The notes under the pieces: model-generated
What the model was told of the DNA's origin: nothing
What the model saw: the letters and a program-made list of their open reading frames with translations, nothing else
Database searches by the model: none
Made by a program: the position numbers and the translations under genes
NCBI GenBank assembly: GCA_001692895.1
Contig: KV748186.1
Span: forward strand, 1,293,785 to 1,357,784
Length of the DNA: 64,000 nt
Source of the DNA: Cenococcum geophilum 1.58
Taxonomy: Eukaryota > Ascomycota > Dothideomycetes > Gloniales > Gloniaceae
Reading direction: 5' to 3'
Part shown: positions 38,893-62,620 of the stretch, piece by piece
Layout of the letters: the number at the start of each line of letters is the position of its first letter
Numbering within the stretch: the stretch's first letter is position 1

Positions 38893-39079
38893 TGTCACGG
38901 CACTGACCTGACGCATACTGTTTTATACTGTCTCGTACTGTTCCCTACTGTTGGCTAGCCCACCACTAGCGACTTAGCGGCCGGCCCTACTATTTATATA
39001 CAATACCCCCTTTCTACCTTCTTCCCCTCTTTATACCATAACGTAGTTATTTAGTCTACTTTATTGCAGCACTATAATA
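38893..39079 (+). repeat. Gypsy left LTR, 187 bp
   Basis: Starts TGTCACGGCACTGACC. The same 187-bp length as the right LTR and a close match to it throughout fix both ends. Confidence 0.9.
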
Positions 39080-40044: not shown

Positions 40045-40147
40045 NATCTCTCTAAAGATGGAAGAGCTGGTACTTAAACTAGCCTATAAAATTAACAACA
40101 GCGACTATATAGGTTGGAGTAAGCAGATAGATATATTCGCTAAGAAN
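40045..40147. other. two ambiguous bases (N) in the Gypsy body
   Basis: Single N characters occur at 40,045 and 40,147, the only ones I noticed. They suggest unresolved differences between reads from several near-identical copies. Confidence 0.85.
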
Positions 40148-43100
40148 CTCGCGAACTATGCACACTAAGCTAACCTTAAGAAGAACGCTAACCACCGCCT
40201 ACCTGCCTAAGCCCCTGCCCCTATGTTAACCCCGACCCTAGTAGTAACTGGAGAACCTATAGACCTTAATAAAATCTTAAACACGGAGCGTAAGCGCCGT
40301 GTTAATAATAGACTATACCTTGCCTATAGCCTACCTAGCCACTAAAAGGATACCTATAACCCCACTAAGATAGTAAACCTAGTCCTAATGCCACCCCGTT
40401 AAACAACGTGAATAAATAACCGCGGATACGGCGACTATGGAGTCTATTATGGACGCGGCGACCGCGGAGCCTATTATGGCCGCGGCGGACGACCCCCCCC
40501 CTTTAACCCTACGGCTTAGTTACTCTAAACTATGCCCTATATAGGAGCCCAACCCGTTAACAACGCCTAGTATTGGCGACTTCGCGCTAGCAAATACGAA
40601 CACGGCTATATTATTGGCGAGGTATTATCTTCCTATACCCTGACCAAAATAGAGATAAACACCGCCAGCTAGACGGACACTAGACCGCCCCGCTAAGACA
40701 GCTCTATACCCTAGTCATTAAAAGGCAGACCCTTAAACTAAGTTGCGCCTAAGGGTTTAAACCATATAAGGAGGAAGACGAGAAGATTAGGTCCCTATTA
40801 CTAAATTAATTAGTCCTTTCTATTAGTAAACTGCTACTTAATCTTAGATTAGCAAATAGTAATAAGAAATTAATCCTTATTTAAACCCAACTCTCCTTAT
40901 TACGTAACCTATACCCCCAAGTTTATATTAATATAGTAAGCCTAGTAGACTCCAGTAGTACTATAATAGCATTTGCTGACGCAGAGTCTATTATAAGAAA
41001 GTATAACGTTATAACTAAGAAGCTACTAGCACCTAGGCCACTACGCCTTGCAGATAGTATCCTAACTTTGCTTATTATAGACTACTTTACCGCCTAAATA
41101 TTAATCGGCCTCCATACTAAAGCTATACTCTTTTTTATTACCAAACTCTTGCCTACTACCCTAATTATCCTAAGTATGCCCTAGCTTTAGAAGCATAAGC
41201 CCCGTCCTAGCTTTAGAAAACTTAAAATCCGCTTTAACTTAGACTACTACTTTAGGCACTACCTCTTATAGGGGATAGCTAATGTTAGTAGGGACGCCTT
41301 ATATGGACACTTAGTACTACTAAGCCTAGTGCCTAGGACTATATATAAAGCCCTAATAGTAGAAGACGTTCCTAATAAAGGGGAGCCCGTATAGCTGCAA
41401 AGAAATAAAATAATAGAAGACTGGATTAACCTAGCACTTAAGACCAAAACGACGAGCTAGCTAGCCCTACTAAGACTAAGGAAGAAGGTTCGCTTTACAC
41501 CGCTACTACTAAGAAACTAACCCTAACCTAGGCACTATTTAAACCCTGGCCGCCTAGCCTGATACCTAAAACTAAGCTATATGCTATATACGCACACTAT
41601 AGCTCGCGTTATAGCAAGGACTGGCTATAAAACTACTAAAACCCGGATAATAGAAACCGCGCCACCGTAACGCCCAACCTTATACCTGTCTCCCGCGCGT
41701 ACCATACAGAGCTACCGCCTCGTTTCCGCCCCCCTAGGCTAACTAAGCTATGCCAGCCTAGCCGTAGCACTAGAGAGCTAAACATGCCCTAACCTAGACA
41801 ATATTAAATGCACCTATGCTATTAATTTTACCTAGTTCTGTAAATAAAAAAACGTAAAGGTAATAAGGATCTATATGGCAGAGCTGGTAAAACTAGTTAA
41901 ATAAGATAAGCACCGACAGCTGTTTAAAGAGCTGCCTATAGGCCTAATAGAAGTACTAAACCTATTAAAAAGGTCTTTTCGCTGGCTAGTAGAAGGCGAC
42001 TATATAATAAAGAAAGCCCGTAAAGCGCTCCCCCCCTATTTCTATAACTTTCTTAAAATAAATCTAAAAACTAAACCTAAGCTTTTATGTTGGAAGATAG
42101 TCGATACTAATATTAAAAAATTCCTAAAAGGTAAACCAGGATTAACCCGCGAAGACATTCTACAACGCCTATTAAAGGAGTTTAGTAAATATATTAAGCA
42201 CTTTCTCCCTAAAAATGTAGATAAGCTGCCCCCTTACTAACCATAGGACTATAAAATTAAGATTACCCCTAGAAACTAAGCCCTATACTATAAAAATAGA
42301 CCACTCTTATCTACTAAACTTAGGTATATAAAGAAGTGGATTAATAAGATACTGGATAAGGGTTTTATCCGTGAATTAACCTTACCAGCTACCGTACTAC
42401 TCCTCCTTACTACTAAGCCCGGCGGTAGTATATAAATCTACTATAACTACTAAGGCCTAAACACAGTCACTATTAAGAATTAATACCCACTGCTACTAAT
42501 CTATAAGACACTTGACGTACTTTATAGCGCTAAGTACTTTACTAAACTTAATATAATTGCTGCGTTTAACCAGATCCGGATTGCGGAGGGTTATAAATGG
42601 CTTATAGCATTTATTACCCGGTTTGGACTCTATAAGATACTAGTTATACCATTTGGCCTCTATAACGCACCCGCTATGTTTTAAAACTATATTAACTATA
42701 TTCTATACAACGCCCTTAATAACTACTGCACTGCCTACCTTAATAACGTCCTTGTCTTTTCTAAAACACGCGCCGAGCATACTAAGTATATAAATGAAGT
42801 CATCTAAAGACTTGGCAATGCTGGACTTTAGATTAATATTAATAAGTTTAAGTTCTACTTTACTAAAACAAAATATCTTAGCTTAATTATCTTAACTAAT
42901 AGTATAACTATAGACCCTAAGAAGATACAGGCCTTATAGGAATGGAAGGACCTAACATTAATTAAAGAACTATAACAATTTCTTAGCTTTACGAACTTCT
43001 ACCAACAATTTATCTAAGGCTACTCTGCTATTGCTATACCTATAACAAAACTTCTAAAGAAGGATATTGGATGGCTATAGGGACTAGAACAAGCCAAATT

Positions 43101-45341
43101 GTTTAAGGCCCTTAAGGGAGCCTTTACTTCGGCACTAGTACTAGTATACTATAACTATATGAAGAAAATAGTGGTAGAGATAGATGTATTGAATTAGGCT
43201 TCTAGCGAAGTCCTTTCCTAGTATAACGACAACGGAAAATTAAAACTAGTCGCATTCTTCTCCGTAAAGCACTCCGCGCTAGAATATAACTATAAGATCT
43301 ATAATAAAGAACTCCTAGCTATTGTTAAGGCTTTAGAGGAATAGTGTCTTAAGCTGTAAGGGACTAAGGAGCCGTTTAAAATTATTACCGACTATAAAAA
43401 CCTATAAACGTTTATAACTACTAAGCAGCTAAACTAGCGCTAAGTCTAGTGGGCAGAGTTCCTTTTATAGTTTAACTTTATAATTATATATAGACCTGGC
43501 AGCAAAGCTACGCTCCCTAATGCCCTAAGCTAGCTACTAGGAATAAGGCCTAAGGACGCTAATAATAAACGCCTCCGCCACTAAGCCTAAGTCGTTATAC
43601 CGCCCTAAAAAGTTAACCCTATAATTTTAAAAGAATTACTATATAAGTCCCGTAACTCTAACGACGTAGAGTTTATAGCCGCTCTAGACCCTAAAATAGC
43701 CGAAAAGTTACTAGATAAGTTAATCCGGCTAAGATACCAGGAGAACGAACTTGTAAGAGATATAGTAGCAGCCCTACGTAATTGGAAAGCTCGCCGTTAG
43801 CTAAAGAAAATTAGGAAATTACTCTGTTGCGATAAGTTAGAATATAGTATCATTAACAGATAGATTTACTTCCGCTAACATCTCTTCGTCCCTAACGCCC
43901 TAGACCTCTACCTAAAAGTTACCCATCGCTCTTATAGCAGCGGCCCTACTAATTACCCTAGCTAGGTTAAGACTCTTAACCTCTTAAACCAAATATACTG
44001 GTAGCTAGGAATCTCCTAGTTTACGGCTACCTTTATTAAAGACTATACCCTATACTTTCACACTAAGACCCCCTATTCTGCCCCGCCCGGTTTCCTAAAG
44101 CTACTAGAATTACCCGCCTGCCCGTAAACTAATATCTTAATTAACTATATTACAACGCTGCTAGTATGCTAACACTATAGTAAGGTATACGAATATATCC
44201 TTATTATTATAGACCGCCTAACTAAAATATAATACCTTATTCTAGTAATAGGACTCTTAATAGAGGAGTTAATTAATGGCTTTATTAACAACGTATATAA
44301 GCTCTATAGTGTATTAAGCACAATTATCTTTAATCGCGGTATATAATTTGTCAGCGACTTCTAGCGACGACTAAGTAAACGCCTTAAGACAATCTTGCGA
44401 CTAAGCTTAGCCTAGCACCTAGAAACGGATAGCTAAACTAAAATTATTAACGCCGCCATAAATAAATACCTTTGTGCTTTTGTTAGCTTTATATAGGACG
44501 ACTGGGTTAACTACCTGCCGCTCGCCGAGTTTGCTATAAATAACTAAGTTAATAAAAGTATAGGCATCTTCCTATCTCTTACAAACTACGGCTTTAACCC
44601 TCGCCTTAGAATTAAGCCTGCTGGCCCCTACCTACCGACACTATTAGTACAAGTAAAGAAGGAGTTCTTCCGCGCAGACTCTATAGCCAACCGCTTTAAG
44701 CGGATATTAATACAGCTTAAGGCCCTAGCCTAGATTTTATAGTAACGCTATAAAGATAATGCTAATACCCGTAGGGATAAGAGTGCGTTATTCTACGAAG
44801 GTAATATAGTTATAGTTAGCTTAGAAAATATAAAGATAAATAGACCTAAGAAGAAATAGGACGACAAATAGGACGGCTTGTACCCCGTACTCGCAGTATA
44901 CCAAGGGGTAGTTATAATAGACCTCCCGGACTATATCCGAGTAAATAAATCCTTTTATACATCTAAGGTCCGCCTCTAGGCTGCTAAAGAGATCCCTAGT
45001 TAAGTAAATATTAATACCGCAGAGCGCCGTAATATATAAGGACGAGTGGCAGAGAGAGATAATAACGGCAACATAGAAGACAAATGGGAGTTTAAGAAAA
45101 TCCTTAATATACACAATAAAGACCCCTAGGGCCTAACTTATAAGATTAAATAGAAATATTATAAGGATATAACCTAGCAGCTAGAGGAAGACCTAAAGGG
45201 TTGCGAATAAGCTATACAGCGCTTTTATAAGCAACACCCTAAGAAGCTAAGACCCCCAGACTGGGTACAAGATAAGGAAAAGTCACGCCAAGATCACAGC
45301 CGACTACCGCATTAAAATTTGTGGTAGTTAAGATGTTATAG

Positions 45342-45364
45342 AACTTTAACCGGCGGTTAAAGTT
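45342..45364. repeat. hairpin in the Gypsy 3' untranslated part
   Basis: aactttaacc and ggttaaagtt form perfect 10-bp arms around ggc. The hairpin lies between the chromodomain segment and the purine tract, in a stretch (45,330-45,600) that keeps more CpA/TpG than the coding part. Confidence 0.7.
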
Positions 45365-45620
45365 ATTTAATTGGCCAAATTCTTACCAAGAAACGCCACA
45401 CGGACCGATTTAGGTGGTGGTGTAGAGTTCTGCCGACCTTACTCACTAAACTAACCAATTAGGATTTTCCATGCCCGGCATAGAAAATCGCCATTGGCTT
45501 GGTTAAGGGCGGTAAGCGGAACTAATATCTTTGTGGTAGAAAATAAGCAACCCCGTATACTGCCTATTTTTAAGTTATCTATTCGGTTTAGGGACTAAAC
45601 CGTCTGGGGGAGAGGAGTAT

Positions 45621-45807
45621 TGTTACGGCACTAACCTGACGCATACTATTTCATACTATCTCGTACTATTCCCTACTATTGGCTAGCCCACTACTAGCGA
45701 CTTGGCGGCCGGCCCTACTATTTATATACAATACCCCCTTTCTACCTTCTTCCCCTCTTTATACCACAACGTAGTTATTTAGTCTACTTTATTACAGTAC
45801 TGTAACA
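45621..45807 (+). repeat. Gypsy right LTR, 187 bp
   Basis: Starts TGTTACGGCACTAACC, ends TGTAACA, and is followed by the CTATG target duplication. Confidence 0.9.
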
Positions 45808-46440
45808 CTATGCCTCTAGTACCTACTTCGCTGTTTGTTACTCTTATATATATTAGAAGGGTATAAACCCTATTTACTTAGCCTTATTTTATCTAATTAT
45901 TATATCTAAGTAGGAAGTTACTTAAATTATATAAATTAGGGTATTTAGACATAATATCCTAGTAAATGTTTTAATATATAAGTACTTCCTAGTGACACCA
46001 GTGTATAAGCAATTAAGGTATAACTTTAAAGAATTTATATTGGCCTAATTTGCGTATCTTCTAGGGGGGGAGGCTGTATTGAAAAAACTAGATCTGGGAG
46101 TTACTAGAACTGTAGAAACTTGGTCCTTAGTATTAGAGAGGTTATAAAAGTTTAAGAGTCCTAATTTTAACGTGGTGCTCTTCTATATAGTAGAACTAAT
46201 GGATTTAGCTTTCTGGGGTTTTCGGCTCGCTTAATAATTTTGCTAAGGGTAGGACGATAATAGGGAAAGTAGGTTAATCTAAGCCTTTTACTTATAAATG
46301 TATTTTCTAAAAACTTACTATTTAAAGCTATAGTCTTTCTAAGGCTTGCTTTGCTAATAGTAACCCATTTACTTATATATATTTTATTAGGATAAGGGGC
46401 TGGTAATTCGTTATTAATCTTAGGTAGCATTTAGTTATAC
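45808..46440 (-). pseudogene. large unidentified gene relic, 5' part
   Basis: Minus-strand coding-like sequence on the upstream side of the Gypsy insertion. An open stretch of 87 codons begins with Met at 46,430 (KWVTISKASLRKTIALNSKF region). After a frame change it continues to the insertion point (TTGVTRKYLYIKTFTRI region near 46,000), then on across the target site into YLASLVGTYIDR at about 38,886. The Met at 46,430 is a possible start because the frame above it is poor. Confidence 0.45.
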
Positions 46441-48190
46441 TTCCTAAGTCGATAACTAAATAGAGAGGATAAGTTAGCACTAGAGCGAAATATCTCCTTA
46501 ACCTTCTACCTAGGGATAGACGTAAGCAATGATATTATGCCTAGACCACTACTATAGAGGCCGAAATAGTGCTTATAGCTGGCCGATAGTTGGCGGGGTA
46601 GCGTCTATACCGTATACGCGGGATATAACTTGATAAGGATATAGAAGCTAGGTTATATTAATAAAATATAGATCAAACTGGATAATATAAGTTTATATAG
46701 GTTTAGTTAAGGAAGGCTGAAGGTAAGTATATATATCTAATAAGTTTTCTGGCTTTTTTTTACTATCTTATTAGTTTTCCTTCTAACTCCTTTTGAATTT
46801 ATTTGGATTTACTAAAATATATATACTATATCTAGCGTCTATAATCAATTTTCTATAGAATATCTTAACCAGATTGGCGAAATTAGTTAGGATTTTTCTA
46901 CTTAAATTCATTCTATAGCTATGCCGGTAGATAAAACCTATTAACTATAAAACTAGGTTATTTTTAAGGTAAATTAGCTAATAATTCGTTTAGGTTCCTG
47001 GGAGGCAATGCCTAGCTTATTCTAAAAGGGGTAAAGAAGTTTAGGTAATTCTAGGAAAGAACTATCCCTAGTGCGGTACTCTAGTAAACTAGTTAGAGTA
47101 TTTAGTAAGAAACTTTTTTTGGCAATTTCTATATAGGGCTAATATATGGAGTACCCTAAAGATAGTAAAGGGCTAGGTTTATAGGTAATAGAGGAGGTGG
47201 GGGTTACTATAAGTACCGAGTTCCCTAATTTCTAAAGATACTTATAGTAGTAAGAGTGACATTATATATATTTCTAATATATATATTTTACTTCTTTTTA
47301 GCTTTATTAGCTATATACATATTAACTTATAGGGGGAGCTATCCTATAGTTAGTATTTATAGCTATTTGGCTTACTATATATTGCTAGATATATAATTAC
47401 ACCTAGGTTTACTATAAGTGTACTTATCTCCAGTATACTATAAAGGCTTAGTGCATAAAATACTAGGAGATAGGAGTGAAATGCCTAGTAAATATAGTCG
47501 CGATGTAAGAATAAATACTTTAATATATTAATATATGGCCAATGCTCTCTATAAACAGTATAGGATTAACGAAAATAGTAGTTTATCTTAACTGCTTAGA
47601 CAGTAGCCTAAGTAAGCTAAAACAACCATTTCTTTTAGGTGACTGCTATAGCAAAATTAAGGGTACTAGTAGGTATAACGGTATTAGCGAGCAAGGCCAA
47701 GTCCTAACCTAAATGATTATATCTAGGAAACTAGGTTGAGCTATTTATAAGGGCTATTCTAACCGTAGTAACCTTAGAGGTTAATTAGGTGGATAGAGTT
47801 TATATAAATAGCTAAAGGAGATAAGCTTAGATTAGATTAGATACTAGTTGCTTATAATAGGTAAAGTAGTTACTGCTCTATCGGCTAAGGCCAAATCTTA
47901 CTATGTAGTCTAACATTTAGAGCTATGGCTATTACCTTCTAGGAAGGTAAGAATAGTGCTAAGATATAAAGCTAGGACGTTATATCGCTAATTAAATTAA
48001 ATATTTGGCTTATAAACTTAAAGCGGTTATAGAACGGGATGTATACCTTATAAGTAGCTAATAGCTAGTGGCTGATGGCTAATATAACACGTACCGCCGC
48101 GGCAAATTCTATTCGCCGTTATTAACTACAACGCGTTTAATCTCTACGCCTTCACTATTACCGGACTACTTTTTATTACTTGTTAAAAAA
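46441..48190. other. RIP-degraded spacer
   Basis: Dense stops, AT-rich runs (tatatata near 47,275) and no recognisable gene or repeat. Confidence 0.4.
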
Positions 48191-48199
48191 ACTATCTCG

Positions 48200-49000
48200 G
48201 TTACTTAATGAATCTCTTAAGAAAACTCCTCTATTTTATACACGTCCTCCTTATAGTTAGGGACACTTAAAATCTTCTGCTGTAATAGTCCTATAAGATA
48301 GCCACGCCTACTAAATTCAGCGTACCACCTATTAAGGCTGTAGATCTGGCTAGACTCCTAAAAAAAGAGGCCCGGCGGACTTCTAAGATTAAATTCCTAA
48401 CTAGCGACGTTTAGCAATTATATTAATAGTTATACGAAATAAAACACGACAGATTTCCACTAAGCTAAGTTGATAAGCTTTAACGGAATATTACTTAGCC
48501 CAAATACTAGGAATGCAAAGCCTAATATCTAAAGGACGCGCTTAGTGAGCATATCTAGCAAAATACTCTTCGCAAATACGATATGGACGAGATGCCTTCT
48601 ATAGATAGCTAGCGGGGTATCGTGGCGTTCTATATATATCTCTTAAAGTAATACGGGCTTTCTTTAAAGCAAGTAAGGGAATGCCGACTATTGATTAAGA
48701 CCTAGACCTACTGGTAGCCTAAGGTAAAGCTTCTTCGGGAAGCTTCGGCCCTTTAAGAGATATAGATAGTAAAGAAGCACTTAGCAAAGAAAGCATAATA
48801 AGCATAGCAGTTAAAACTAACTACTAGATTAGTTCTAGCTAGTAAGGTATTAGCTAGAATAATAAGGCCTAAAGCTAGCGACTCTATAGGGGCGAGGGTA
48901 GTAAAATATAGGGGCGGGGTCAGCGCTAAGGCACGCTAGGTTTAACCCTTCGCGTTATTATATAATCTAGATCAACCATTCCTCCATTCTAGTACACTCC
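48200..49000 (+). pseudogene. unidentified helical gene relic
   Basis: A plus-strand frame from an ATG near 48,207 is coherent for about 260 codons with RIP-type stops only. It is rich in Lys, Arg, Gln and Leu; recognisable blocks include TKFSVPPIKAVDLARLLKKE and RKYDMDEMPSID. It ends near 48,970, about 180 bp before the kinase relic in the same orientation. Family unknown; the basic, helical composition would suit a nucleic-acid-binding or structural role, but this is a guess. Confidence 0.4.
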
Positions 49001-49179
49001 ATACCATAAGTTAGGGTCTTAGCACCCCTTTAGTATAAGTCTATAGGTCCTCTTATCCCCGCCACCCACTAACACTCGCCCTATTAATTTATTTCCCGTC
49101 TCTATAACTATAGCACCTACTAAGACTATTAATCTCTCTAACATTTTCTTAATTCTTAGAAATTTTAAGGGTACACTTA

Positions 49180-50715
49180 ATATCCTTATATTGTCCGAGA
49201 ATTTACGATATAAGTTTACTCCCTCTATTAATGCTCTTCCGGCGAACTAGAAGGGAGGCTAGTTTAAGGAGTAGGAGCTTACCGGCCCCTTTTTTGCCCT
49301 AACTTTTAGAGATTACTATTATCTAGATAGATGCTTCCTTAGTTCTTCTGGCGAAACTAAGATATATAACCTCTAGCTTATTAAGAATAACAAGACTAGC
49401 ATTAGCAGGCGGCATATTAGGTTTAATATTAGCCCAGTTATAAGACGCCTAAGAGTAAAGATGCTATTAACAAATCCTATTTATATAATCGATGGTAATG
49501 GCCGCGAAGTAGTCCTTATATAGGGATCATCTATAGAAATCTCTAACCTAGTTACTATCAATCTTCAAACGGCTAGTTTCTGGGCATGGCGTCCGATCCT
49601 ATCGCGCGAGGAAGAAGGCAGTTGGCGAGAAAAAGCCGTAAAATTTACTAAAGAACTTCTAGACTCCCTACTAAGACAGCTCCTTAGTCTTAAGGCTAAG
49701 ATAAATAAGAACTAAACCAGCAATCTTAGATTTGGAAAAGATAATACTATATATATACAGAAATGGGGATTAGAAAGGAAAGGAAGTTACGTATTAGTTA
49801 TAAGGGTATAGGAATTAAAGTTTAGAGTTATCTTCGCCGCTAAGGAGCCATACTTAAGGAACTACGACGATAGTATAGTAAGAAAGGTATAGGAAGAATT
49901 AAGAGCGGAATATAAGAATATAATCGAGCTTGGGGAGTATGTAAGTAAACGCCACTAAAACTACGTTGCCGTTAAGTGCTAATTAATTATCCTTCTTCTA
50001 GCCAAACTTAGTAAAGGTAATCGACTTAATATTACTAGAGAATTAGCAGCCACTGTAGATGATTATGGAGTGGATTTTGTATAGCCTTGACTTGATAAAA
50101 CCTGACGCTTATAACATTCCTAACTTTATACTTTAGGTCTATAACGGAATAGTTGCCATATATAATAAAGATTTTGCTTATTAGGACCTAAAGCCAGAAA
50201 ACATCCTTATTAGAGTTAACGACGACGGGCTTACTTCTAAGATCGCCGACTTTAGAGAATTAAAATTTAAGGCTTTAGGAAATATAATGACTATTACTAG
50301 CTTAGTGTTATATATGGCCCCTAAACTCTATATAATAAACCTACCTTATTCTAAAGCCATCGATATATAGTCCTTTGGACTTATTATACTGGAACTTCTA
50401 ACTAACTAGGAGCCTAACTTAGAGATATGGGGCTCCTATAGCCTGCTAAGTCCCAAACAGTATAATGACTAGGTTTATAACGTGATCCCTATTTATATAG
50501 TAAGTACGCTAAAGACGTTTAGGTCTATGCTAAAGGGACTATTATATAAGGAACCCAAGCAGAGATAGTCCGCTAAGGAATGCTAGAAATGGCTGCTGGG
50601 AATTATTTTAACAGGTATAAGTACATAGGAAGGCACTAACGATAGTAAGAAGCGGCCTGCGCCGGTATTTAAGGATGACGGCTGTAGAAATATACGGAGT
50701 TAATATCCTACCTAA
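49180..50715 (+). pseudogene. FHA domain-protein kinase relic (Rad53/Cds1-like layout)
   Basis: Seen on the plus strand: an FHA-like region at about 49,380-49,600 has SISRRHIRF followed by a DGNG turn and a VTINLQT strand. The kinase N-lobe at about 49,740-49,950 has a VAIK-like FAAKEP. The C-lobe has a catalytic loop reading QDLKPENIL (50,183-50,209) where HRDLKPEN is usual, DFR at 50,248-50,256 where DFG is expected, an MAPKL (APE) site near 50,311, and DIQSFGLIILELL (DxWSxG) near 50,361. Changed residues fit RIP (for example GGA to AGA). Known: FHA modules bind phosphothreonine, and FHA-kinase fusions act in DNA-damage checkpoints, but other fungal FHA-kinases exist. Inferred: a dead copy, perhaps of a duplicated or element-borne kinase. 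The frame ends near 50,690. Confidence 0.75.
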
Positions 50716-50724
50716 TTGATAATC

Positions 50725-50751
50725 TCCCTAGAGAGACGCAATCTCTAGGGA
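50725..50751. terminator. hairpin just after kinase relic
   Basis: tccctagaga and tctctaggga form perfect 10-bp arms around gacgcaa, followed by tacttttt twice. It lies directly downstream of the kinase frame. A role in 3' end formation is possible; eukaryotic termination does not normally need such a hairpin. Confidence 0.4.
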
Positions 50752-50755
50752 ATAC

Positions 50756-51340
50756 TTTTTAATACTTTTTATATATTTGACGTAACTTCTAATAGAGTTT
50801 TAAAACTTAAAGGATTAGCATATATTAATAGAATCATCCCCTTACTCCTTATTTTGTGTCTTTGTCGTTCTAACTATTTTAGCCGCTCTAACTCCAAGTT
50901 TATAAAGTTTTTAAAATAGTTTAACGCTGGTAAAGAGGTTATTAAGCTATACTATATACTTTCCTAAAGGATAGAGCCGCTGCTAAGTAGTCTCGTACGT
51001 CTATATAAGGCTTGGCGTTAGCATAGTGCTATAAAAGGAAGAGTAGATATAGGATAGCTTACTAAAAGCTACCTATATTACTCCCTAATAACCTTAGTCT
51101 TATAGTTAATTTTAATGGCTATATATTGCTTATCTAGCTCCCCTTCCTTATTAATTACATCGTCTTCTACCTAAGTAAAGGCCTAACCTAAGTTTCGGCA
51201 TACCTCCAGAGTTTTAGGGCGTATTACTAGTAGGTCTCCCTTATTAAATAATATACAGCCTTATCCTTTACTTTTGTTTATAAAGATTAAAGTTATAAAT
51301 AAAACCTTATAGGCCTAGATAGTGCTATAAATAGCCGATA
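50756..51340. other. RIP-degraded spacer
   Basis: No gene recognised. This is the 3' flank of the kinase relic. Confidence 0.35.
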
Positions 51341-51359
51341 ATAAGGCCCTCCTTATAGG

Positions 51360-51820
51360 CTTATGTGATGGAAAACTTAATAAAGAATTGTTATAGGAGG
51401 AAATTGCTAGACATTTTATAGGTAGAATACTATAGGAATGCAGGCGCTATTATAAGATTCTAAGGCCTAAGCCTAAAGAGGAGGCCGTAAAGGAGAAACT
51501 ATAGATAGCCGATAAAGAGAAACGTCTTGTGGATATGCGTAAGGAAAAAGGCATGGCGTGGAATGACCTTAAAAGGTGGTTTCTAGGAAGAACGCGACTC
51601 TTATATAGGAAGTATTATATATATATGTTTCCTAAAAAAGGAATAAGGCGATTAGTAGGACTAGTAATATTAAAGAAAAGAAGGCAGTAAAGCGGAAAGC
51701 AGCGCTAAAGGAAAAGAAGGTAATAAGGTGTAGATAAGCAGCGCTAAATATAAGACCTAATAAGTATTGCTTAACGGCAGGAGTAAGGAATATAAATTAT
51801 GGCGGTTATTCTTATAGGTT
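51360..51820 (+). pseudogene. relic with Myb/SANT-like motif
   Basis: A plus-strand frame at 51,370-51,750 is coherent and very Lys/Arg-rich. At about 51,530-51,625 it reads MRKEKGMAWNDLKRWFLGRT then RLLYRKYY, close to the W..I..RFPGRT...L..R.Y core of Myb/SANT DNA-binding repeats. A basic tail follows (51,640-51,780). Only one repeat is seen and the ends are undefined. It lies convergent with the left chromo-motif gene copy. Confidence 0.45.
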
Positions 51821-51899
51821 TTATACTATTATTGGGTTGGCTTCTGGCTTTAATATTACATATAAGATAATTAGTGGGATAGTATTAGCTAAGAACAAG

Positions 51900-54035
51900 A
51901 CTTTAACTAAAAATAGATTTCTAAGCAAAAGATCCATTACCTAAAATATAAGAATACGCCTAAGCTATTAGCCCCGTCCCTTCCGTATAGCAGCTCTAGT
52001 CTTTACTTTAGTTACCTCTATAGAAGAGTACATCTATTATTTAACTTTGGCGTGCTAGACGCGTTTTTTATAAGACTTAAGGGCATATTTGGCATTTAAA
52101 AGCCCGCTTTTATAAACCTAGGTAGGCATCTAAGCTACCTTATATTCGAGCCCTAACTTAGTTATTCTTTCCTCTAGAATTTTACAGATCTCCCATTTAT
52201 CGTCTACGGTTGTTTTATTGGCTTTATTATCTTTAGCACGGGATCTCCGCAAGATAGACTATAAGCGATAGCGATAATACTAGGCACGATACTATGGGGT
52301 ATAATGCTTTATAGCAGGCTCTGAGTTTAAAACGCCGCCCTAGTCGTCGTTGCCGCTATAATTATATTCGCTTAAGTTGCTAGTTTTGTTACGCAGTAGT
52401 TTAATATTATAAAGAGAGGTAGGCCCCAAAAGCAAAGGGTTAGTGGGCTATGTAGTAAATATCGCTTAGTAATCGTTATAATTAACTTAGGGGTATTAAG
52501 AGTTAAGGCCAATAGGAGGCTAGGGGGCCAAGTTTTCACAAGAGGTAGGCGGCTTTTATTATTTCTAGGGTCGTGGACCACCGTCCTTACTACCCTCATT
52601 ATGCCCGCTGCTATCTTTGGCAGAATTGTTAGAATTATAATTAATAACGCTACTCCGCTTTAGCTATTTGAGCTTCCGCTTCTTTGGTGTTAAAAGTAAT
52701 TCGCCTCTAATATTCCCTTTTTTATAATTGCTCTCTTTCCTAGTAAGCGGACTAGCCTAGGGAATAGTTATAATATTAGTTCTCTTAACTAGACCGTTTA
52801 TTTTATTAATATCTTCCGCTATAAGTTTAATATAGTTATATATAGATACGTTGAAGAGATCTTTAAACTCTTCTAAAGAAGGTAACTTCTCACCCTCATT
52901 ATTATTACTACAGTTATTTCCGTTACCTAATAATTGTTAGGCAAAGCTATTGTATAGAGGAGAAGAGTATACCCAATTTATAAGGTGTTAGTTAATTGTT
53001 GGCTTTACTAGCTTTATTGCTAGTGTTATTATCGGCTCTATCGCCTTCGGCTTTTAAGTTAGGGTTAGCTATACTATCTTTAATAGCTATTAGATTTACT
53101 GCTAGCCGTTAAATATATATATTTATAGCTGCTAGGAGAATAGGGAGAGAGTAGTAGAGATAATTACCTTAACTGCTTCCTCTAGCAACTTGACTAGATA
53201 TATCCCCATAGACATCTTCCTTATTATCCTCGAAATTTTTGTAATAATTATTCTCGTAATTATAGTTAGGGTCTATAAGCGCTTTATTAAATGAAATCTC
53301 TAAATTAAGGCTTTATATAGAATAATATACCTCTAATTAGCCAAGTTTAATACGCCCTAGGGTTGTTTCTTAGAGGGGAAAGGGGTATTTTATGCTTTAT
53401 TTAAGATATACTACTCGCGCCTTTCTCGGAAGCTATAACTGTATAATATTAAGGTGAAGCTATCCATTTTCTAGAGGGACTAGTGTAGAACTTGCTATTA
53501 TTAAGCAAAATTTCTAAATAAAAATGAAGGGGTTAAGAAGGTGCTACCGTTGCTACTGCTATTATTATTAAAGTTGCTATTATCTTGTGCCTTTCTAATA
53601 ACTCTAAGGGGGGATTACGCTAGCCTTTTAAATGCAAGCTAGTTCCCTTTTTACTACTAGCTCTTATCCGCGGCATCTATACTAGAATAACCCTACTAGC
53701 TCTATAGCGAATTAAAACGTATAATCTATACTCTATTAGCAATTGCCGTTTATAACATATAAGGGTTTATATAGGCTTAAGCTCTATTATAAGATTAACG
53801 CCTATTAGGAAACTGGGATTAAGACCTAACTAACTAAGCTAGCATATTTAGCCTCTAACAGGGGCGTTGCACTAAGCCTCCTTATTAAGGAGGCTGGTGG
53901 CGAAGTACCTCCTCTACCCTTATTCCTTAGAGTTAGGGCTAGTACTAATATATCCGTTTTCTAACCCGATTATACTAGCAAACTAAATCTTCCGTACTAG
54001 ATCCTCTATAAGACCATAGTTCTAAGCGGTGCCTA
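51900..54035 (-). pseudogene. chromo-motif gene relic, left copy
   Basis: This is the inverted counterpart of 58,600-61,085; the two align over most of their length with about 15-25% difference by eye, plus indels. In gene order (minus): a conserved block 54,035-53,480, an acidic Asp/Glu/Asn/Ser-rich middle (about 53,270-52,850), a variable part, and a C-terminal motif at 52,204-52,090. There WEICKILEERITKLGLEYKV followed by MPTQVYKSG is chromodomain-like (compare YEVE.IL..R...G...YLVKW). Known: chromodomains read methylated histone tails or serve as integrase targeting modules. The family is otherwise unknown to me. Broken by RIP-type stops. Confidence 0.6.
53650..54035. repeat. left arm core of long inverted repeat
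   Basis: The best-conserved part of the inverted gene pair pairs with about 58,600-58,983. Matching anchors include aagcctccttattaaggagg against cctccttaatagggaggctt, and ttagagttagggctag against ctagccctaactctaa. Confidence 0.85.
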
Positions 54036-54199
54036 GTATAGCCCTACGGCCATTTATAGCTGTGCTACTAGGGATTAGAGTTGCAGGTCACGGTTACGCT
54101 TTACGCCGCTAAAACCGCCCCGTATATTAAAAGGCGGTTAGTAGTAACACTTAAAGGATTAGGACTAATAGTATTCCTTAGATAAAGATATAATAGCGT

Positions 54200-55170
54200 A
54201 GTTCTACTAGGAGTTTAGCTAAAATTATATAGAGCAGCAGCTGGCTAAACTAAGCCCTATAAAGCGATACGAGGAGCCAGAGCGCCTATAAGCGTCTCCG
54301 TTACCGTTTTATGCTATTACTAACGTGACAGTAAATATAGATTCTATAGATAAGCTACTACGGGGTGTCGCCTTAAGTGAAGGATAGTATAGAAACTGGA
54401 GTAGCCGCGTAATCTAGTAAGGCTTTTAGCTAAAAATGTATAAATATACCAACTAATTAATATATGTAATAGAGTAACACCAGGACGCCGGATAAGCTAA
54501 GGCGGCTTAAAAATCTTTAACATTAGCCCTTTATAGAATTGTCCCTATAGTACCAATTACAACATCTAACGGTTCGCGCTAATGCGGAGCGGTGCCTTTA
54601 AGAACTAAAGGGATGATATAGGTCTAAGTCAAGTTTAAATTGCTTAAGAAGAGTAATTTCTAGATAGAAGGGGTTGTTTAGGTAGTCTAGAGACTAGGTT
54701 TAAGTAGAGTGAATAGCTATAAATATATAGAAGGGTTATTTTTAGGCAAGAAGCCCAGAGGTAGTATAAGAGCGCTTATTAGATATCGGAGGATTAAACT
54801 ATAGGTATAATATTAGGAGAGGCCGAAGCATACTTACTCTGCGCTATTGTTAGTATAAGACACAGGATATTAGGAATACGAGGGTAGTATAGCACTTATA
54901 TTAACGCCAAGTTGGTAAAAAATGCCTTATAGTAGGGATTGTAATCTAATAAAGAGGTGGCGTGGCGTTGGGAAGTCTAGGAAAAGAAGGAGGATTAAAA
55001 GGTAAAATACAGAGAACGGGGGAAGGTCGTCCTTTTATGGTCGACGTTGGATAAGGATACTAGATTACCAAAAGATTAGCTAAAAAACTTAATTTTCTAC
55101 GGATATAAGATTTTTCAAGTCCCGGCTCAGACACCTCCATAACTGGTAGTTAAACCCTCCAAATTTAGAG
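54200..55170 (+). pseudogene. unidentified gene relic before the minisatellite
   Basis: A plus-strand frame is coherent from about 54,200 to 55,000 (blocks LSPIKRYEEPERLQASPLPF and DSIDKLLRGVALSEGQYRNW near 54,260-54,410; RVNSYKYIEGLFLGKKPRGS near 54,710-54,770). It becomes very basic near 54,960-55,040. It runs toward the 12-bp minisatellite, which could have been its 3' coding end. No family recognised. Confidence 0.4.
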
Positions 55171-55204
55171 GGCTCTAAGCCTACTAGACAGAGTTTATAA
55201 GCAG

Positions 55205-55901
55205 AGTCTTGTATAAAGCTTTATATAGAGCTTTGTACAGAGCCTTATGCAAAGCCTCTATATATAAAGCTTTATATAGAGCCTTATATAGAGCCTCATG
55301 CAAAGCTTTGTGTAGAGCTTCGTATAGAGCTTCGTGTAGAGCTTTATATAGAGCTTTATATAAAGCTTCGTACAGAGCTTTGTATAAAGCTTTGTATAGA
55401 GCCTCGTGTAGAGCCTCTATATATAAAGCTTTGTATAGAGCCTTATATAGAGCCTCGTGTAAAGCTTCGTATAGAGCTTCGTGCAGAGCTTTATATAGAG
55501 CCTTATATAGAGCCTTAGTACGCAGAGCTTTGTGTAGAGCCCGTAAAGCCTCGTGCAAAGCTTTATATAGAGCCTCGTACAAAGCCTCGTGCAGAGCTTC
55601 GTATAGAGCTTTGTATAAAGCCTTATGCAGAGCCTTAGTACGCAGAGCTTCGTATAGAGCATCGTGTAAAGCTTTATATAGAGCTTCGTATAGAGCTTCG
55701 TGTAGAGCTTTGTATAGAGCTTTATATAGAGCCTTATGTAGAGCCTTAGTACGCAGAGCTTCGTGTAAAGCCCGTAGAGCCTCGTATAAAGCTTTGTATA
55801 GAGCCTTGTACAAAGCTTCGTGTAGAGCTTCGTGTAGAGCTTCGTATAGAGCTTTATGTAGAGCTTTATACAGAGCTTCGTGTAGAGCCTCGTGCAGAGC
55901 C
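55205..55901. repeat. 12-bp minisatellite, about 58 units, with higher-order structure
   Basis: Units follow aagcYtYRtRYa (for example gagctttatata, gagcttcgtgta). The variable sites are Y-R-T-R-Y, so copies differ by transitions expected from CpG/CpA decay of a gagcctcgtgca-like ancestor. An interrupting block ccttagtacgcagagctt recurs at 55,513, 55,633 and 55,744 (spacings 120 and 111 bp), giving a higher-order repeat. Because 12 is a multiple of three and the units lack stops, both strands carry frames of over 250 codons (A-L-Y-K/A-L-H-E tetrapeptides on minus, K/R-A-L/S-Y/C on plus). These frames alone do not prove a gene. HindIII-like aagctt cores make each unit partly palindromic. Confidence 0.95.
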
Positions 55902-55902
55902 T

Positions 55903-56171
55903 TTACATTAGGAAATTTTTTTAGGTACGTTGTTATAAGCAAAAATCAGGGTCTGCAAAACCTACAGGCGTAAGTCGCAATTTGACAATTTGCGGCAATT
56001 TGCAGCAATTTGCTACAAACACATAGATAGGGCAGGCGCGTGTATAGGTAGCCTATGTGTTTATAGCAAATTGCTGCAAATCGCCGCAAATTGCCAAAAT
56101 TGCGACTTACGCAGGTTTTACAGACCCCGATTTTCGTTTGCAACGAAGCCAAAAAAAAAATCCTAATGTTA
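55903..56171. mobile_element. 269-bp foldback / MITE-like element
   Basis: Two arms of about 120 bp form an imperfect inverted repeat around a 26-bp loop (56,027-56,052). Matching anchors, left to right, are ttacattagga / tcctaatgtta, gcgtaagtcgca / tgcgacttacgc, gcaatttgcagcaatttgct / agcaaattgctgcaaatcgc, and acacatag / ctatgtgt. CpA and TpG are abundant, so it was not RIP-mutated; it is shorter than typical RIP length thresholds or arrived later. It has no coding capacity, and no target duplication is obvious. It joins the minisatellite directly on the left and the LINE fragment on the right. Confidence 0.8.
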
Positions 56172-57335
56172 TTATATAGTTTAGTAGGGTTTAAGGTAAT
56201 TACTTTTAGGAATTAGCGCTAGTTATTTCTACCCTCCTTTTATATTATCTTCTTAGGCCTATTCTTTAGGGCCTTATAGCTCTATTAGTAGTAGGCTTTA
56301 TTTATTACACTATACTATTACCTTGCTCGTTTTGCGCCTATAAGTAGCGAGGCTATCTTTAGCGACTATTTATAGTAGGCGTATTTTCTAGGCTAGGCCT
56401 TTAAGTAGTATTCTTCTAAGTAGTTAATTATAATCCTTTAAATATCCTCTAGTAATACCTAGGGTATAGCTATTAGCTTATTAATAACTTCCTAGGCATA
56501 CTTTTTTAAGTTAAATTTCTTAGTAGTATATCTCTAGCGGGTTTGTTACGCTAATACGGCGATATTAAGCGTTATCTATATAGGTATATAGTCTAAGATA
56601 ATTACCTATATGCCTTCTAGTCCGGAAAGCGCTAGTTAGTTTATATATATTTCTTATATAAATATAAAGTCGATTAAACTCTCCTAGGTTCCTCTTTTTT
56701 AGGTAGGTTTACTTATTAAGGTAGTTAGAGTAAGGCTCCACGTTTTAAGCTTATTTAGTAGGTAAGTCGCCTATACTTTAGCTATTGTAAGGGGGTAAGG
56801 CCTTTAAGGCAGCTTTAAAGGAAGTAAGATTCTATTAAGAGCTAAGTTATATAGACCTTACAAGTAATAAGACGTTCGGATAAGGAATAGAACAGGTTTG
56901 GGTTAACGTAGTCAAGATATAGGGGTCGCCGTGGTACGTGCACGTGCTTTAAGAGGCTTCGGTAAAATTCCACTATCATTAAGTGTTTTACCGAGACGTC
57001 CTTACTGTAACAGGACAGTCCCGTTATAGCTATAGCCTACTATCCTTACTACGCTATATAGTATATATTAAAATTCCCTAGGACTATTACCTTGCCTTTT
57101 ACTATATTAATAGTATATTAGAATAGTCCCTATATAGTAATTTAGGGTTTATTATCCCTTAGGTTATAAACGTTAATTATACTAATTTAGCTCCTATTAG
57201 TAGCTTTACACCTATATATTAATGCATTAACTAAGTAGCTAAGTTTAGTTTAAATAAAAGATAATATCCTTTTATTTAGTAAAGAATAAGATAGAGACCA
57301 CGCATTAGGAAATGGAGGTTCCTTTATAGGTAAGG
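56172..57335 (-). mobile_element. Tad1-like LINE fragment (endonuclease to pre-RT), interrupted
   Basis: The minus strand reads as a LINE apurinic-type endonuclease. INVYN and a VLGDFNI motif lie at about 57,185-57,080, then, after a gap, LLNKLKTWSLTL and ESLIDFIFI (56,745-56,650). A basic linker (LLIGAKRARQQYSV, YKALKNRPKKII) runs toward 56,190, as precedes reverse transcriptase in fungal Tad1 LINEs. RT itself is absent because the fragment stops at the foldback element. Stops are RIP-type. About 250 bp of unrelated, RIP-poor DNA splits the endonuclease. Confidence 0.65.
56780..57045. other. RIP-poor insert inside the LINE endonuclease
   Basis: Between the GDFN part and the LLNKLK part of the LINE there is about 250 bp that the family does not have. 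It keeps CpA and TpG and holds short palindromes: tcggtaaaa...ttttaccga at about 56,959-56,996, ctgtaacag near 57,006, and a gtacgtgcacgtgc block near 56,935. It may be a small non-autonomous element; its borders are uncertain. Confidence 0.4.
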
Positions 57336-58000
57336 CGCGCTCGCTTTCCCACTTCAGTTTGGCTAAGACCTAACCTTAACCTCAACCATAAAAGGCCTTC
57401 TCCCTTACTGCTTTTGCCCTTATGCTCTATCTCCTCTTTTCTTTCCCGCTACCGTGCCACCTTAGACTCTAGCTGTTAGCTATAAGGCATTTTCTATCCC
57501 CTTAGCGTCTATGTAGGTGCTCTGCCCGCCTTCCCTAATCTCTATATATTTTATACTAACGATTACCTAGCGCTGTAACTCTTCGGCCTTTTCCATGGGA
57601 TATATTTATACTCTCTCCTAGTGTTAACGTATGCTTCGGTTCTACCGTATTCCTCCTTTCTTCTCTCCTTTCTCCTCTTCTTCTGCCTACGTCCCCTACC
57701 GGAATAACATTTCCATTTATTCTCTTCTTTACCTCCGCCTCTAGTAGTGTTTTGGGCATAACTACAATATGCGACTTAATCCCTATTAGAACAGCTATAA
57801 ATGGCTATAAGGCTGTGCCGAGAACCGCCTAGTAATAGATTATACGGGTTATAGCTGCTGCGAGCTACGGGACGCGTTAGGTAGTGTTATATTATAGCGT
57901 TATAATAAAGGCGAAGCCGGACGCCGAAGTGGATCCTTAGCGAAACTATAGGCTAATGCCAGTTACTTAGCTTGGTTAAAGCTGCGCTGCTAAAAGCTGG
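57336..58000. other. possible LINE ORF1 remnant, unresolved
   Basis: A pyrimidine-rich plus strand gives a minus-strand open stretch at 57,759-57,556 (67 codons, Arg/Glu-rich). It may belong to LINE ORF1 upstream of the endonuclease, but no zinc knuckle or other marker is visible. Confidence 0.3.
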
Positions 58001-61000
58001 AAGCCTTCGCCCTCCTTAGCGCCTTCTTAACCTAGACCTAAACTTTACTTTTCCCTAATAATTAGAGGATTGTATTGCGATTAGAGAAGCTGCCGGGCTT
58101 TAGTTTAATCTAGCCCCCTATTTAGCTAAGAAGGTACGGGTTATATGGAAATATCCTTTATATGGACCTAAGACTTATAAGGCGGAATCTGGGGGTAAAT
58201 GGCCTATCTGGTAGTATAGCCTGGCTTCTAGTGGAGCTGGTATTATAATCCTACTCTTAGCTAACAAATACTAGAGAAAAATTCGCGTATTTAATCTCCT
58301 AACGGAGACGGACTTTATGCGGTGGCTGTATTAGCTAAAAGGGCTGAGATAGATATGGGCGTAATTACCTAATCTACTCGCGCTATCTGCCCCCTTATAT
58401 TATTTATAATATCCAGCTATAGGTAAGGGTAAAAGTGAGGCTTTTGCGTATATTTGGGAGGTTAAGTAGCGGCTATAAGCTCCGTAGAGTATGACTAAGG
58501 AAATTCCTTAAATCTAGGGGAGAGATTTAAGGATGCCCTTATTACTTGGAGTGTCTTTTAATGCTTATAGTAGAATTACGGCACGCCCTTTACCTGTCTA
58601 ATATTAGGAATTATGGTCTTGCGGAGGATCTAGCGCGGAGGATCTAGCTTGCTAGTATATTAGGGTAGAAAACGGATATGTTAGCGCTAGCCCTAACTCT
58701 AAGGAATAAGGGTAAAGGAGGTACTTTACCACCAACCTCCTTAATAGGGAGGCTTAGTGCGATGCCCCTATTAGAGGCAGAATGTGCTAGCTTAGTTAGT
58801 TAGGTCTTAATTGCAGTTTCCTAATAGGTGTTAATCTTATAATAGTTTAAGCCCGTGCAAACCTTTATATGTTACAAACGGTAATTACTAACGGAGTGTA
58901 GATTATACGTTTTGATTCGCTATTAAGCTAGTGGGGTTATTTTAGTATAGATGCTGCGGATATAAGCTAGTAGTAAAGAGGGGACTGGCGTGGACTTAAA
59001 AGCCTAACGTGACCCGTTTTTTAGGGCTATTAAAAAGGCATAAGGTAATAATAATTCTAATAATAATGGCGGCAGTAATAGTAGTATCTTCTTAACCTCT
59101 TTACTTTTATTTAGAAATTTCACTTAATAATATTAATTTCTATACCGTACCCCTTAAAAAACTAAGGGTATTTTAGTATTATGTAATTATAGCCCTTAAG
59201 AAAATTACGAGCAGTAAACCTAAAAAGAGAAATAGGGGAGTACCTCTTTTTTCTTTAAAAAGTTAAGAAGTACGGGAAGCTTAGGCACTTAATAGCATGT
59301 TATCCCACCTAGGGCCTTAATTTAGAGATCCTATTTAATAAAGCGCCTGTAGACCCTATATATAATTATAAAAAAGCTTATAATAAGTATTATAAGAATA
59401 ACAAGGATGACGAGGATAATGAGGAAGATTTCTATAGGGATGGAAATGATAGTTAAGTCCCTAGGGGAAGTAGTTAAGGTAATTATCCTAATAATTACCC
59501 TACTACTCTCCCTCTTTCCCTAGTAGTTTTAAATATGTAGTTTTAACGACTAGTAGCAAATCTAATAGTTATTAAAGGCGATATAATTGATCTAAATTTG
59601 GAAACTGAGGGCGATAAAGCTAGTAACGCTGATGACGAAGCTAACGAAGTTAATAAGGCTGGTGAAGCCGATAACCAACCAATGTCCCGTAAATTGGGTA
59701 TGTGTATTCCCTTTAATTTATAATGGCCTTATCTAATAATTAGTAGATAATGGGAATAACAGCAGTAATAAGGACGATAAAGATAATAAGGAGCTGCCTT
59801 CGTTAGAAGCGCTAGAAGAGGAGGTACGCGTACCTATATATAATCTTATTATACCCTTAACGCTAGACAGTAATTAAACGGATAATTTAGCTAAGGGGCG
59901 TCGTATTAGAACTGCTCCGCAGTTTAGGCAGGAGTTTAGGATATTAGTGGCTGCCAGTTAAGAGTCTTTAGGAGCTAAGAAGTTAAAGAAGCGGAGGTTC
60001 AATTAGCTTAAGTAACTAAATAATACTAATTATATTTCTAATACTTCCGTTAGCAAGGGCGGCGAGAGCCTATAACCTAGGAAGTAATAAAGATCACTAG
60101 CTTTCTAGAGGACCTTGCCTCTTAGCCCTCCTACCCCTAACCTTAGTGGTGGTGATAACTGTATTAAGAAGCGAGCGGCCTCTGCTACGCGGCCTACTAG
60201 CCCTTTACTTTAGTAATCTTTGTCTTCCTATAATATTAGACCGCCGTAAGACAATCTTAATAATCTTATTAACGGCTTGGCTAAAGAATATAATTATAAT
60301 AATAATAACGAGGACGGCGAGAACGTTGTGGATAAAGGTAAGGCTAAGAACTATAATAATAGAAGCGATAATAGCGGCGATATGGATAATAACGGCACTA
60401 GGGACGGCGACAGCAGCGATGGTAATAGCAGCGATAGTAATAGTAGCGATAGCAACGAGGGTAATAAGGCCCACGGGTATATAGGGCGACGAGGATTACT
60501 GGCGCCCGTTAGTGGTGGATCGAAACCAAAGTATGCTGTAAAGTATTGTCTTTAGCGGTCTTACCCATAGCAAGCGGTATCTACTCCGTAGCCCGCCAGC
60601 CCTTCGCTTTAGAAGCCTACCCTTCTCTATAGTATTAAGCCGCCGTATAAGGAGGCTAGCAACCGTACTTATAATAAGGACAAGGATAGTAATAGTGGTA
60701 GCGTCTCTAATAACTGGAGCAACGTTTTAAACCTAGAGCCTGCTATAAAGCATTATACTAGGACTAAAAAGGACAAAATTAATAAAATGAGCTTGGATAA
60801 TAAATGGGAGATCAACGATATTCTAGGGAAAAGAATGATTAAGTTAGGGCGCGAATATAAGGTGGCTTAGATGCCTACCTAGGTCTATAAGAGCGGGCTT
60901 TTAAATTCTAAAGGTGCCCTTAAGTTTTACCAAAGACGTGTTCGGTAAGCTAAAGCCGGATTATTATAGGTATATTCTTTTCCTAAAGTTGCGAAAGTAA

Positions 61001-61085
61001 AGGGTAGAGTTGCTGTGCAGAAGGGACGGGACTAGAGCTTGGGCGTATTCTTATGTTTTAGTTAGTAGTGGTTCTTTTACTAGTT
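58000..61085 (+). pseudogene. chromo-motif gene relic, right copy
   Basis: Plus-strand homologue of 51,900-54,035. The part 58,000-58,600 is coherent but not shared with the left copy. From 58,600 on, the two copies align: a conserved block (58,600-59,150); an acidic region with DNEEDFYRDGND (59,410-59,450) and DDEANEVNKAGEADN (59,630-59,680); a long Asn/Ser/Asp-rich low-complexity stretch (60,290-60,460); and the C-terminal chromodomain-like motif WEINDILGKRMIKLGREYKV then MPTQVYKSGLLN (60,806-60,910), followed by a basic tail to about 61,080. RIP-type stops break it. An acidic, low-complexity body with a chromo-like end suggests a chromatin-linked protein; this is inference. Confidence 0.6.
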
Positions 61086-61320
61086 AAGGTGATAATTAGC
61101 GATACTACCCTTTACACGCCAGAAAATAAACAAAATTAGGTTTACTAGGCTATTATATTAATGGGTAGCATCTATATAGTTATAGTGTCTGCATTTTCTT
61201 CTGCTTTAGTTATATTTATATACTATATTGCGGCAAGCCTGCCGTCTCTAAAAGGACTCCCTTATAGGCAATGACCTTAACGCATAAATGTTCCTAATAT
61301 TATACTTAAAACGATAAGAG
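61086..61320. other. RIP-degraded spacer
   Basis: Nothing recognised after the end of homology with the left copy. Confidence 0.35.
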
Positions 61321-62620
61321 AGGATACTATTAATAGTCCTTTTTTTAGCGCTTGGCACCTAATTTATATTGGCTGTAGATAGACTTATATAGAGTTTAAA
61401 GATGAAATTTATTGCTTTATATTTTCTTAAGTATCTCGATTCTTCCGAAGGTCTATTTAGGTGGAAAATTTCACGCTATAATTCCGCGATATATCTATTA
61501 TATTATTTACCTCTTTTTCTAATCCTGGATGGTAAAATCTAGTAGTTAAAAAGGTAGATCTATCTAATACCCAAAACGCGGCTATAGGAGGTTTATAATT
61601 ATTCTTGGGAACCCTATAATTAAAGATAATCCAAATATATCTTACTACTTTTGTAATTAAATGCTGTGTAGGCTTTATATCTACCGTAGTGTTAGCAAAA
61701 CCAAGCGTTTGCTTAGAGAATGTATAAATTAACTCTATGTCCGCCCGATTAGTATCTAACTAATAAGAGTTAAATAAAGCCGGGCGAGTAGTAATAAGAA
61801 CTTAAATTGGGGGCAATATAGTATATAGTGTCGTGCGCGCGATAGTTGAAGCCATAATTATGTTTAAGAAGGTCTTGCGACTCTAGAGTAAGGTAGGTAT
61901 ATTTATAATAACTTCTTACCCAATCTGGGGTTCCTCTAGTCTACGTAATATTATTATCTGTGTATTGTCTGCTATAGCCGTTTATTTTCTCCCAGATGTC
62001 CTAATCCGCATAGCTATAGCCTATAAAATAGTAGGTATGTATAAGACACATAAAGCAGTTAGTATTAAGGTTATAATAAATAAAATGTATATGTAAGTTT
62101 AACTATTTCTTAAGTTGGAGCCAGATTAAATAAATAATCGGCTAGCTGAGGCTTTAAAATATTTGACTTTATTACCTTATATCGAGGTAGTTAGTCCTGC
62201 ACCTTCGGCTATATATTTACTCCCAACTCCGGGGTCTTGTATATTTAGCTTCCTATAAAGCCTTACTCTGTAGTTATATCCTGTAAGGCACTAGACGCAT
62301 TTAGCGCGGTATTTAATAAAGATAGAGGCCTTATAAAGTTTGCCTTAGCCTTCTATATCCCGCGTTAGTATGTTTTAGATAAAGACCGCTGTATATAAAA
62401 CGCTATTAATTATTTAGCCTATTCCGCTTTCGGCTTAACACGTTCGCATTTAGTAGCTTTATAGGCCCATTATATTATAAGCATCCACCCTAAGAAAACC
62501 AGTGAGCCGTTTTAGTATTTGCTTTTACGCAGATATAAGGCAGCGGCTGGCGTTAAAGAGAATTTAGGTATAAGATAAGGAGGTTTACTTAATAAGTGTT
62601 TGTTATAATTAAGGACTATA
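61320..62620 (+). pseudogene. unidentified gene relic(s)
   Basis: Two coherent plus-strand frames with RIP-type stops. One at 61,330-61,600 includes MKFIALYFLKYLDSSEGLFR. The other at about 62,190-62,600 includes FALAFYIPRQYVLDKDRC and NYLAYSAFGLTRSHLVALQA. The AT-rich stretch between them is poor. Family unknown; possibly one gene with introns. Confidence 0.4.

Follow-up and report, generated by a model that had tools for sequence, protein, structure and literature searches.

The AT-rich stretches of Aspergillus flavus known as ATEs carry heavy mutation of the repeat-induced point mutation (RIP) pattern together with transposon relics (PMC9910759). The 64,000-nucleotide stretch of Cenococcum geophilum 1.58 DNA analyzed here (contig KV748186.1; hereafter, the window, position 1 being its first letter) is like them in these respects, but it also contains relics resembling host genes, namely a protein kinase, an ABC transporter, and a pair of related, inverted sequences with a chromodomain-like motif in each, which is the subject of this work. 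Among the literature matches listed, there was no inverted pair of chromo-motif genes. On balance and with moderate confidence, we favor the explanation that the two sequences are old paralogues in divergent orientation, both copies of one spliced fungal gene, and that they lie in an AT-rich, RIP-degraded region. The window is most plausibly an AT-rich region of an ascomycete, and in all likelihood the two copies are unremarkable dead genes rather than parts of a mobile element of a new kind.

Architecture and divergence of the inverted pair

Comparison of the sequence with itself by BLAST revealed extended inverted homology between two arms, and repeat seeds yielded the same arms. Arm A lies on the minus strand, from 55059 to 51924, and spans 3.1 kb; arm B lies on the plus strand, from 57371 to 61081, and spans 3.7 kb. 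Both read outward, facing away from each other. Their main bodies, which we regard as gene relics on the basis of BLAST homology and alignments (51924-54022, minus strand, and 58608-61081, plus strand), match in inverted orientation in three segments: 52801-54022 with 59878-58608 (72% over 1284 columns), 51924-52219 with 61081-60781 (76% over 304 columns), and 52299-52467 with 60758-60572 (68%). The homology continues inward past 54022 and 58608. A start-codon region, supported by BLAST homology and a further check, is found at 54022-54085 (minus strand) in arm A and at 57770-57832 (plus strand) in arm B, with 78% identity over 64 columns, and contains an ATG in the context ATAAATGG at 54053 and 57801, respectively. 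This ATG follows an upstream segment (54687-55059, minus strand, and 57371-57744, plus strand), for which the alignment score was 137; in 200 dinucleotide shuffles, the score never rose above 61, and an unreversed control gave 25. The upstream segments are seen in the alignment to be pyrimidine-rich in both arms, and may be promoter- or 5'UTR-like. Four features recur in both arms: the upstream segment, the surroundings of the ATG, an intron candidate, and the far end. Each arm also contains a stretch of its own, at 54086-54686 in arm A (an insertion in A or a loss in B) and at 57833-58607 in arm B; by BLAST, alignment, and shuffle test, 54086-54845 of arm A and 57833-58607 of arm B are unalike (score of 35, with a shuffle mean of 37.7).

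An initial annotation of this DNA described two copies of one gene facing apart, and this is borne out by the colinear inverted homology of 51924-54022 with 58608-61081 and of the upstream blocks, which also supports a gene duplication in inverted orientation. The distance of 4.5 kb that the annotation placed between the copies does not hold: the homology runs further inward, and the spacer between the arms is ca. 2.3 kb long (55060-57370).

The two arms resemble each other much more closely in the block 58608-59200 of arm B (53425-54022 of arm A) than in the remainder, with 14 transversions in 592 columns. Over all 2083 aligned columns, 1440 were identical and 643, or 31%, differed (451 transitions and 192 transversions). 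Because RIP produces transitions, the transversions record another, probably older divergence. Compared with the Asn/Ser/Asp-rich linker (102 of 668 columns), transversions were depleted in the 5' block (Fisher p of 7e-17) and in the chromo-like block (9 of 182; p of 1e-4); elsewhere, they numbered 22 of 302 at 59351-59697, and 6 of 79 and 8 of 40 at the far end. This distribution, with the fewest transversions in the 5' block and many in the linker, suggests that the copies diverged while still functional, before RIP, and the aligned sequences would fit a pair of genes that first drifted apart under selection and only later were mutated. Gaps in part of the body are also codon-sized: all seven gaps from 53459 to 52902 of arm A, six of them outside the intron candidate and one inside, are multiples of three.

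Possible coding traces, candidate intron, and chromodomain-like motif

One intron candidate corresponds between the arms. It is 46 bp long in both, with GTATAC...CTAAC...TTAG in arm A (52972-52927, minus strand) and GTATGT...CTAAT...TTAG in arm B (59698-59743, plus strand); the splice pattern used was loose, and these are among three candidates in arm A and 13 in arm B. Removal of the candidate joins frames f2 and f0 in arm A and frames f0 and f1 in arm B, and the frames linked in this way are those that show matching peptides in both arms. An alternative acceptor in arm B at 59746, aligned opposite that of arm A, gives a length of 49 bp and fits the frame too, 46 and 49 leaving the same remainder when divided by three. 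Upstream of the intron, the used frame contains four stops in 119 codons in arm A and five in 132 codons in arm B, compared with 11 and 23 stops in the other frames of arm A and 11 and 34 in those of arm B, in stretches that were picked after the frames had been seen. The sense peptides of the two arms are 49% identical over 164 residues (E of 2e-34). Neither copy has an uninterrupted long frame at present. A further, upstream splice site near 53411 in arm A and 59214 in arm B, where the frame changes in both copies, was considered and rejected, there being no matching acceptor pair of fitting length.

Several observations weigh against the favored explanation. The antisense frames match almost as well as the sense peptides (45% over 176 residues; E of 3e-27), because the arms are homologous as DNA, and peptide likeness by itself is therefore no proof of coding. 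After the intron, the used frame is not freer of stops than its neighbor (21 versus 19 in 321 codons in arm A, and 20 versus 22 in 432 codons in arm B). In the most strongly conserved block, none of the frames is clearly open, with 10, 15, and 22 stops in 136 codons in arm A (54022-53613) and 12, 13, and 16 stops in about 135 codons in arm B (58608-59015); gene conversion or another constraint could explain its conservation. A third-position excess of transversions is present in single windows and absent over all of them, and the intron candidate, with three transversions in 43 columns, is not more diverged than some coding blocks, 59201-59350 having 20 in 150. The linker alignment is weak, and the body as a whole contains 23 gaps, of which only 12 have a length divisible by three. 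Finally, no relatives were found in the collections searched, which consisted of viral contigs and prokaryote genomes and were thus not fungal.

The preferred explanation, a pair of old paralogues, would involve the following events. An inverted duplication of about 3 kb may have copied the promoter, coding region, intron, and 3' end, as the colinear homology suggests. A long period would then have followed in which selection on the encoded protein shaped both copies, to which the uneven transversions and the codon-sized gaps in part of the body point. RIP, we infer, overran the whole region later, changing CpA to TpA and leaving the observed signature and stops in every frame. Stretches not shared by the arms would have arisen in each of them, and a short miniature inverted-repeat transposable element (MITE) now found in the spacer, which lacks a RIP signature, would have landed after the main RIP wave, or escaped it through its small size. 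A fully RIPed region would in this case still be legible, in that the relatedness of the copies, an intron candidate, and some of the sequence of events can be made out.

The initial annotation had each copy ending in a chromodomain-like motif, and a chromodomain could not be confirmed. The motif lies at 52043-52201 (minus strand) in arm A and at 60796-60954 (plus strand) in arm B, the two copies being 67% identical. There was no match to the Pfam Chromo family at E values up to 10, whether stops were read as X or as Q/W. Among 177,635 distinct PDB sequences, the best match both for copy A (E of 0.14; its sole match) and for a profile of the two copies was the chromodomain of S. pombe Chp1 (Chromo domain-containing protein 1; PDB 2rsn and 3g7l). 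The profile matched Chp1 twice (E of 0.14 and 0.16) and a ribosomal protein (E of 0.72), none of these matches being significant, and copy B alone matched no chromodomain. The chromodomain fold consists of a three-stranded sheet and a C-terminal helix; the alignment with Chp1 runs from a KWE stretch to the terminal helix, with a loop about six residues shorter. At the positions of its two central tryptophans, both copies have TAG stops, which were read as W by choice, and the resemblance to a chromodomain therefore leans on that reading. AlphaFold models built from two sequences (pLDDT of 48 and 60) consisted mainly of helices and were too poor to read. Relatives of the chromo-like end were sought in the same two collections, where none of two pattern matches in viral contigs and none of 395 in prokaryote genomes were confirmed. 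Thioredoxin_2 matches to chromo-like pieces (E of 0.034 and 0.16) were weak and were taken as chance. Judged from its sequence, the C-terminal motif is a plausible, unproven candidate for a chromodomain. The copies end in a basic RKGRG stretch, which resembles an AT-hook. With this basic end and the C-terminal chromodomain-like motif, the gene product may have bound chromatin in the nucleus, an assignment that is weakly supported.

RIP across the window and the origin of the pair

The G+C content of the window varies from 30 to 42% per kb, and RIP indices are elevated throughout its 64 kb, with little variation. Both arms have the high TA/AT and low (CA+TG)/(AC+GT) of RIP-mutated DNA (1.69/0.54 in arm A and 1.68/0.59 in arm B). 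The same indices are 1.62/0.52 in the left flank (46000-51923), 1.49/0.66 in the right flank, 1.61/0.51 at 1-38892, and 1.92/0.48 in a Gypsy relic. The composite RIP index is negative in only 12 of 2550 sliding 250-bp windows; these fall in three places, and at one of the three the value is only just under zero.

That the duplication triggered RIP locally, as the initial annotation proposed, is not supported by these values, since TA/AT in the arms falls inside the range observed outside the pair (1.49-1.92) and the uniformity of RIP over the window makes a local trigger unlikely. Such triggering, in a repeat-linker-repeat manner, would have a precedent in Neurospora, where constructs of this kind do trigger RIP (PMC11969663). 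It would also agree with the excess of transitions among the differences between the arms (451 of 643), and the 5' block may have been long and alike enough to have taken part. RIP is, however, equally strong tens of kb away, and the 192 transversions show that RIP does not account for all of the difference between the copies. Some portions may have had less than the 80% identity given for RIP (PMC4522978). We therefore disfavor local triggering by the pair and consider it improbable.

A composite element with the pair as its arms, also proposed in the initial annotation, is disfavored as well, and more strongly so. Such an element would carry the minisatellite, a foldback, and a long interspersed nuclear element (LINE) between long inverted arms, and the locus does have inverted arms, 3.1 and 3.7 kb in length, around a repeat-filled spacer. 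The outer ends, however, yielded no target duplication, the longest word shared within 25 bp of them being 4 bp, whereas among 2000 random end pairs, 1910 had a longer shared word and the other 90 one of the same length; this test would miss duplications as short as 2-3 bp and any that RIP has altered. The arms also differ in nearly a third of their aligned columns, by old transversions, and by the unshared stretches, and the MITE in the spacer, with a TTA duplication of its own and no RIP signature, looks like a separate insertion. A composite element is accordingly very improbable.

The arms may instead represent two separate insertions, in opposite orientations, of one family of transposable elements encoding a chromo-motif protein, which is possible, though we regard it as rather unlikely. 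Chromodomains terminate some Gypsy integrases, and the window does contain another element, with 185-bp long terminal repeats (LTRs) around a Gypsy-type reverse transcriptase and RNase H. When direct words shared by the ends of arms and bodies were examined, lengths of 9, 5, 8, and 8 bp were found, which were reached by 58, 1000, 233, and 207 of 1000 random pairs, respectively; the 9-bp word, common to the ends of arm A (within 40 bp), is thus weak evidence for an insertion, coming from one of four end pairs tested. On the other hand, no convincing terminal inverted repeats were found in the arms or the bodies, although RIP could conceal them (of 1000 random pairs, 351 and 354 scored at least as high as the ends of the arms, and 805 and 960 at least as high as those of the bodies), and none of the inverted pairs inside the arms (nine in A and 22 in B) joins the two ends of an arm. 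The candidate intron has been retained. No transposase, reverse transcriptase, integrase, or endonuclease match was found in the arms with Pfam, and six-frame translations of 51901-61900 contained no reverse transcriptase, RNase H, or integrase of the kind expected of a chromovirus at E values up to 1. Since similarly RIPed relics elsewhere in the window were recognized (Pkinase, E of 7e-18; RVT_1, E of 2e-17; ABC_tran, E of 5e-15), the missing matches are informative for well-conserved domains, and less so for short or fast-evolving ones. We give as little credence as to a composite element to the idea of an undescribed family of spliced nuclear genes with chromo and AT-hook-like motifs that recur head-to-head and inverted in heterochromatin degraded by RIP; such a pair might, for instance, be mobile or drive in meiosis, and bind its own chromatin.

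Spacer and other features of the window

The minisatellite and the foldback that the initial annotation placed between the copies are both present. A repeat search located the former at 55209-55888, where a 12-bp unit is repeated about 56 times. Frames of 252 and 254 residues are open on both strands over it (55184-55973), and these are the only closed open reading frames of at least 120 residues listed for the window. Matches of the minisatellite frame to DUF445 (E of 8e-5, below the cut-off) and Mito_carr (E of 0.17) were attributed to chance.

The foldback (55906-56168) matches its own inverse in BLAST and has a DNA fold z-score of -18.2. With terminal inverted repeats and a short target duplication (TTA at 55903-55905 and 56169-56171, confirmed by a check of the ends), it is a MITE of 263 bp. 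PIF/Harbinger elements have a 3-bp TWA duplication and family-specific termini; the TTA fits the former. The RIP indices of the MITE (0.95 for TA/AT and 1.48 for (CA+TG)/(AC+GT)) show no signature, and it was therefore probably inserted after the main RIP wave. Its composite index is the most negative in the window. RIP typically needs 400 bp, which makes escape by small size a second possible reason for the missing signature, and the MITE families of Mycosphaerella graminicola are likewise short and without CpA bias (PMC4522978). Of those families, eight of 13 differ from the MITE described here in having a TA target duplication, and ten have an average match length below 200 bp (PMC4522978). 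The missing signature either dates the insertion relative to RIP or exemplifies escape through small size. A match of a 20-base word of the MITE to a viral contig was rejected as chance, the surrounding match being at most 22 bases long and other matches on the contig having an E value of 4.

In contrast to these two repeats, the LINE that had been proposed for the remainder of the spacer (56172-57370, minus strand) was not confirmed: no reverse transcriptase or endonuclease match was found in Pfam, or in the PDB for 57000-57399, searches in which a diverged fragment could be missed. A phrase on the minus strand near 57060 may be endonuclease-like.

Outside the pair, where Pfam scans covered selected frames, a protein kinase gene relic is located at 50002-50721 (plus strand; Pkinase, E of 7e-18, the PK_Tyr_Ser-Thr match being weaker), with no counterpart beyond arm B by self-comparison. 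It is followed near 51442-51600 by a Myb/SANT-like phrase that has no Pfam match. Matches to SH3_retrovirus at 49047-50081 (E of 0.18), to HC2 on a repeat-rich frame (E of 2e-6, below the cut-off), to three NCBIfam entries (E of 0.1-0.18), and to PDB entries (E of 0.9, 0.72, and 0.6-1.9) were all regarded as chance. Neither a tRNA search with bacterial settings nor Rfam yielded a match in the window. An LTR retrotransposon relic occupies 38893-45805, its 185-bp LTRs (38893-39077 and 45621-45805) being 93% identical and lying around the Gypsy-type reverse transcriptase and RNase H at 40369-45906 (E of 2e-17 to 2e-18). An ABC transporter relic is found at 32754-34244 (minus strand; ABC_tran, E of 5e-15); its frame overlaps 33676-34050, one of the three places without a RIP signature, and the matched domain lies outside that place.

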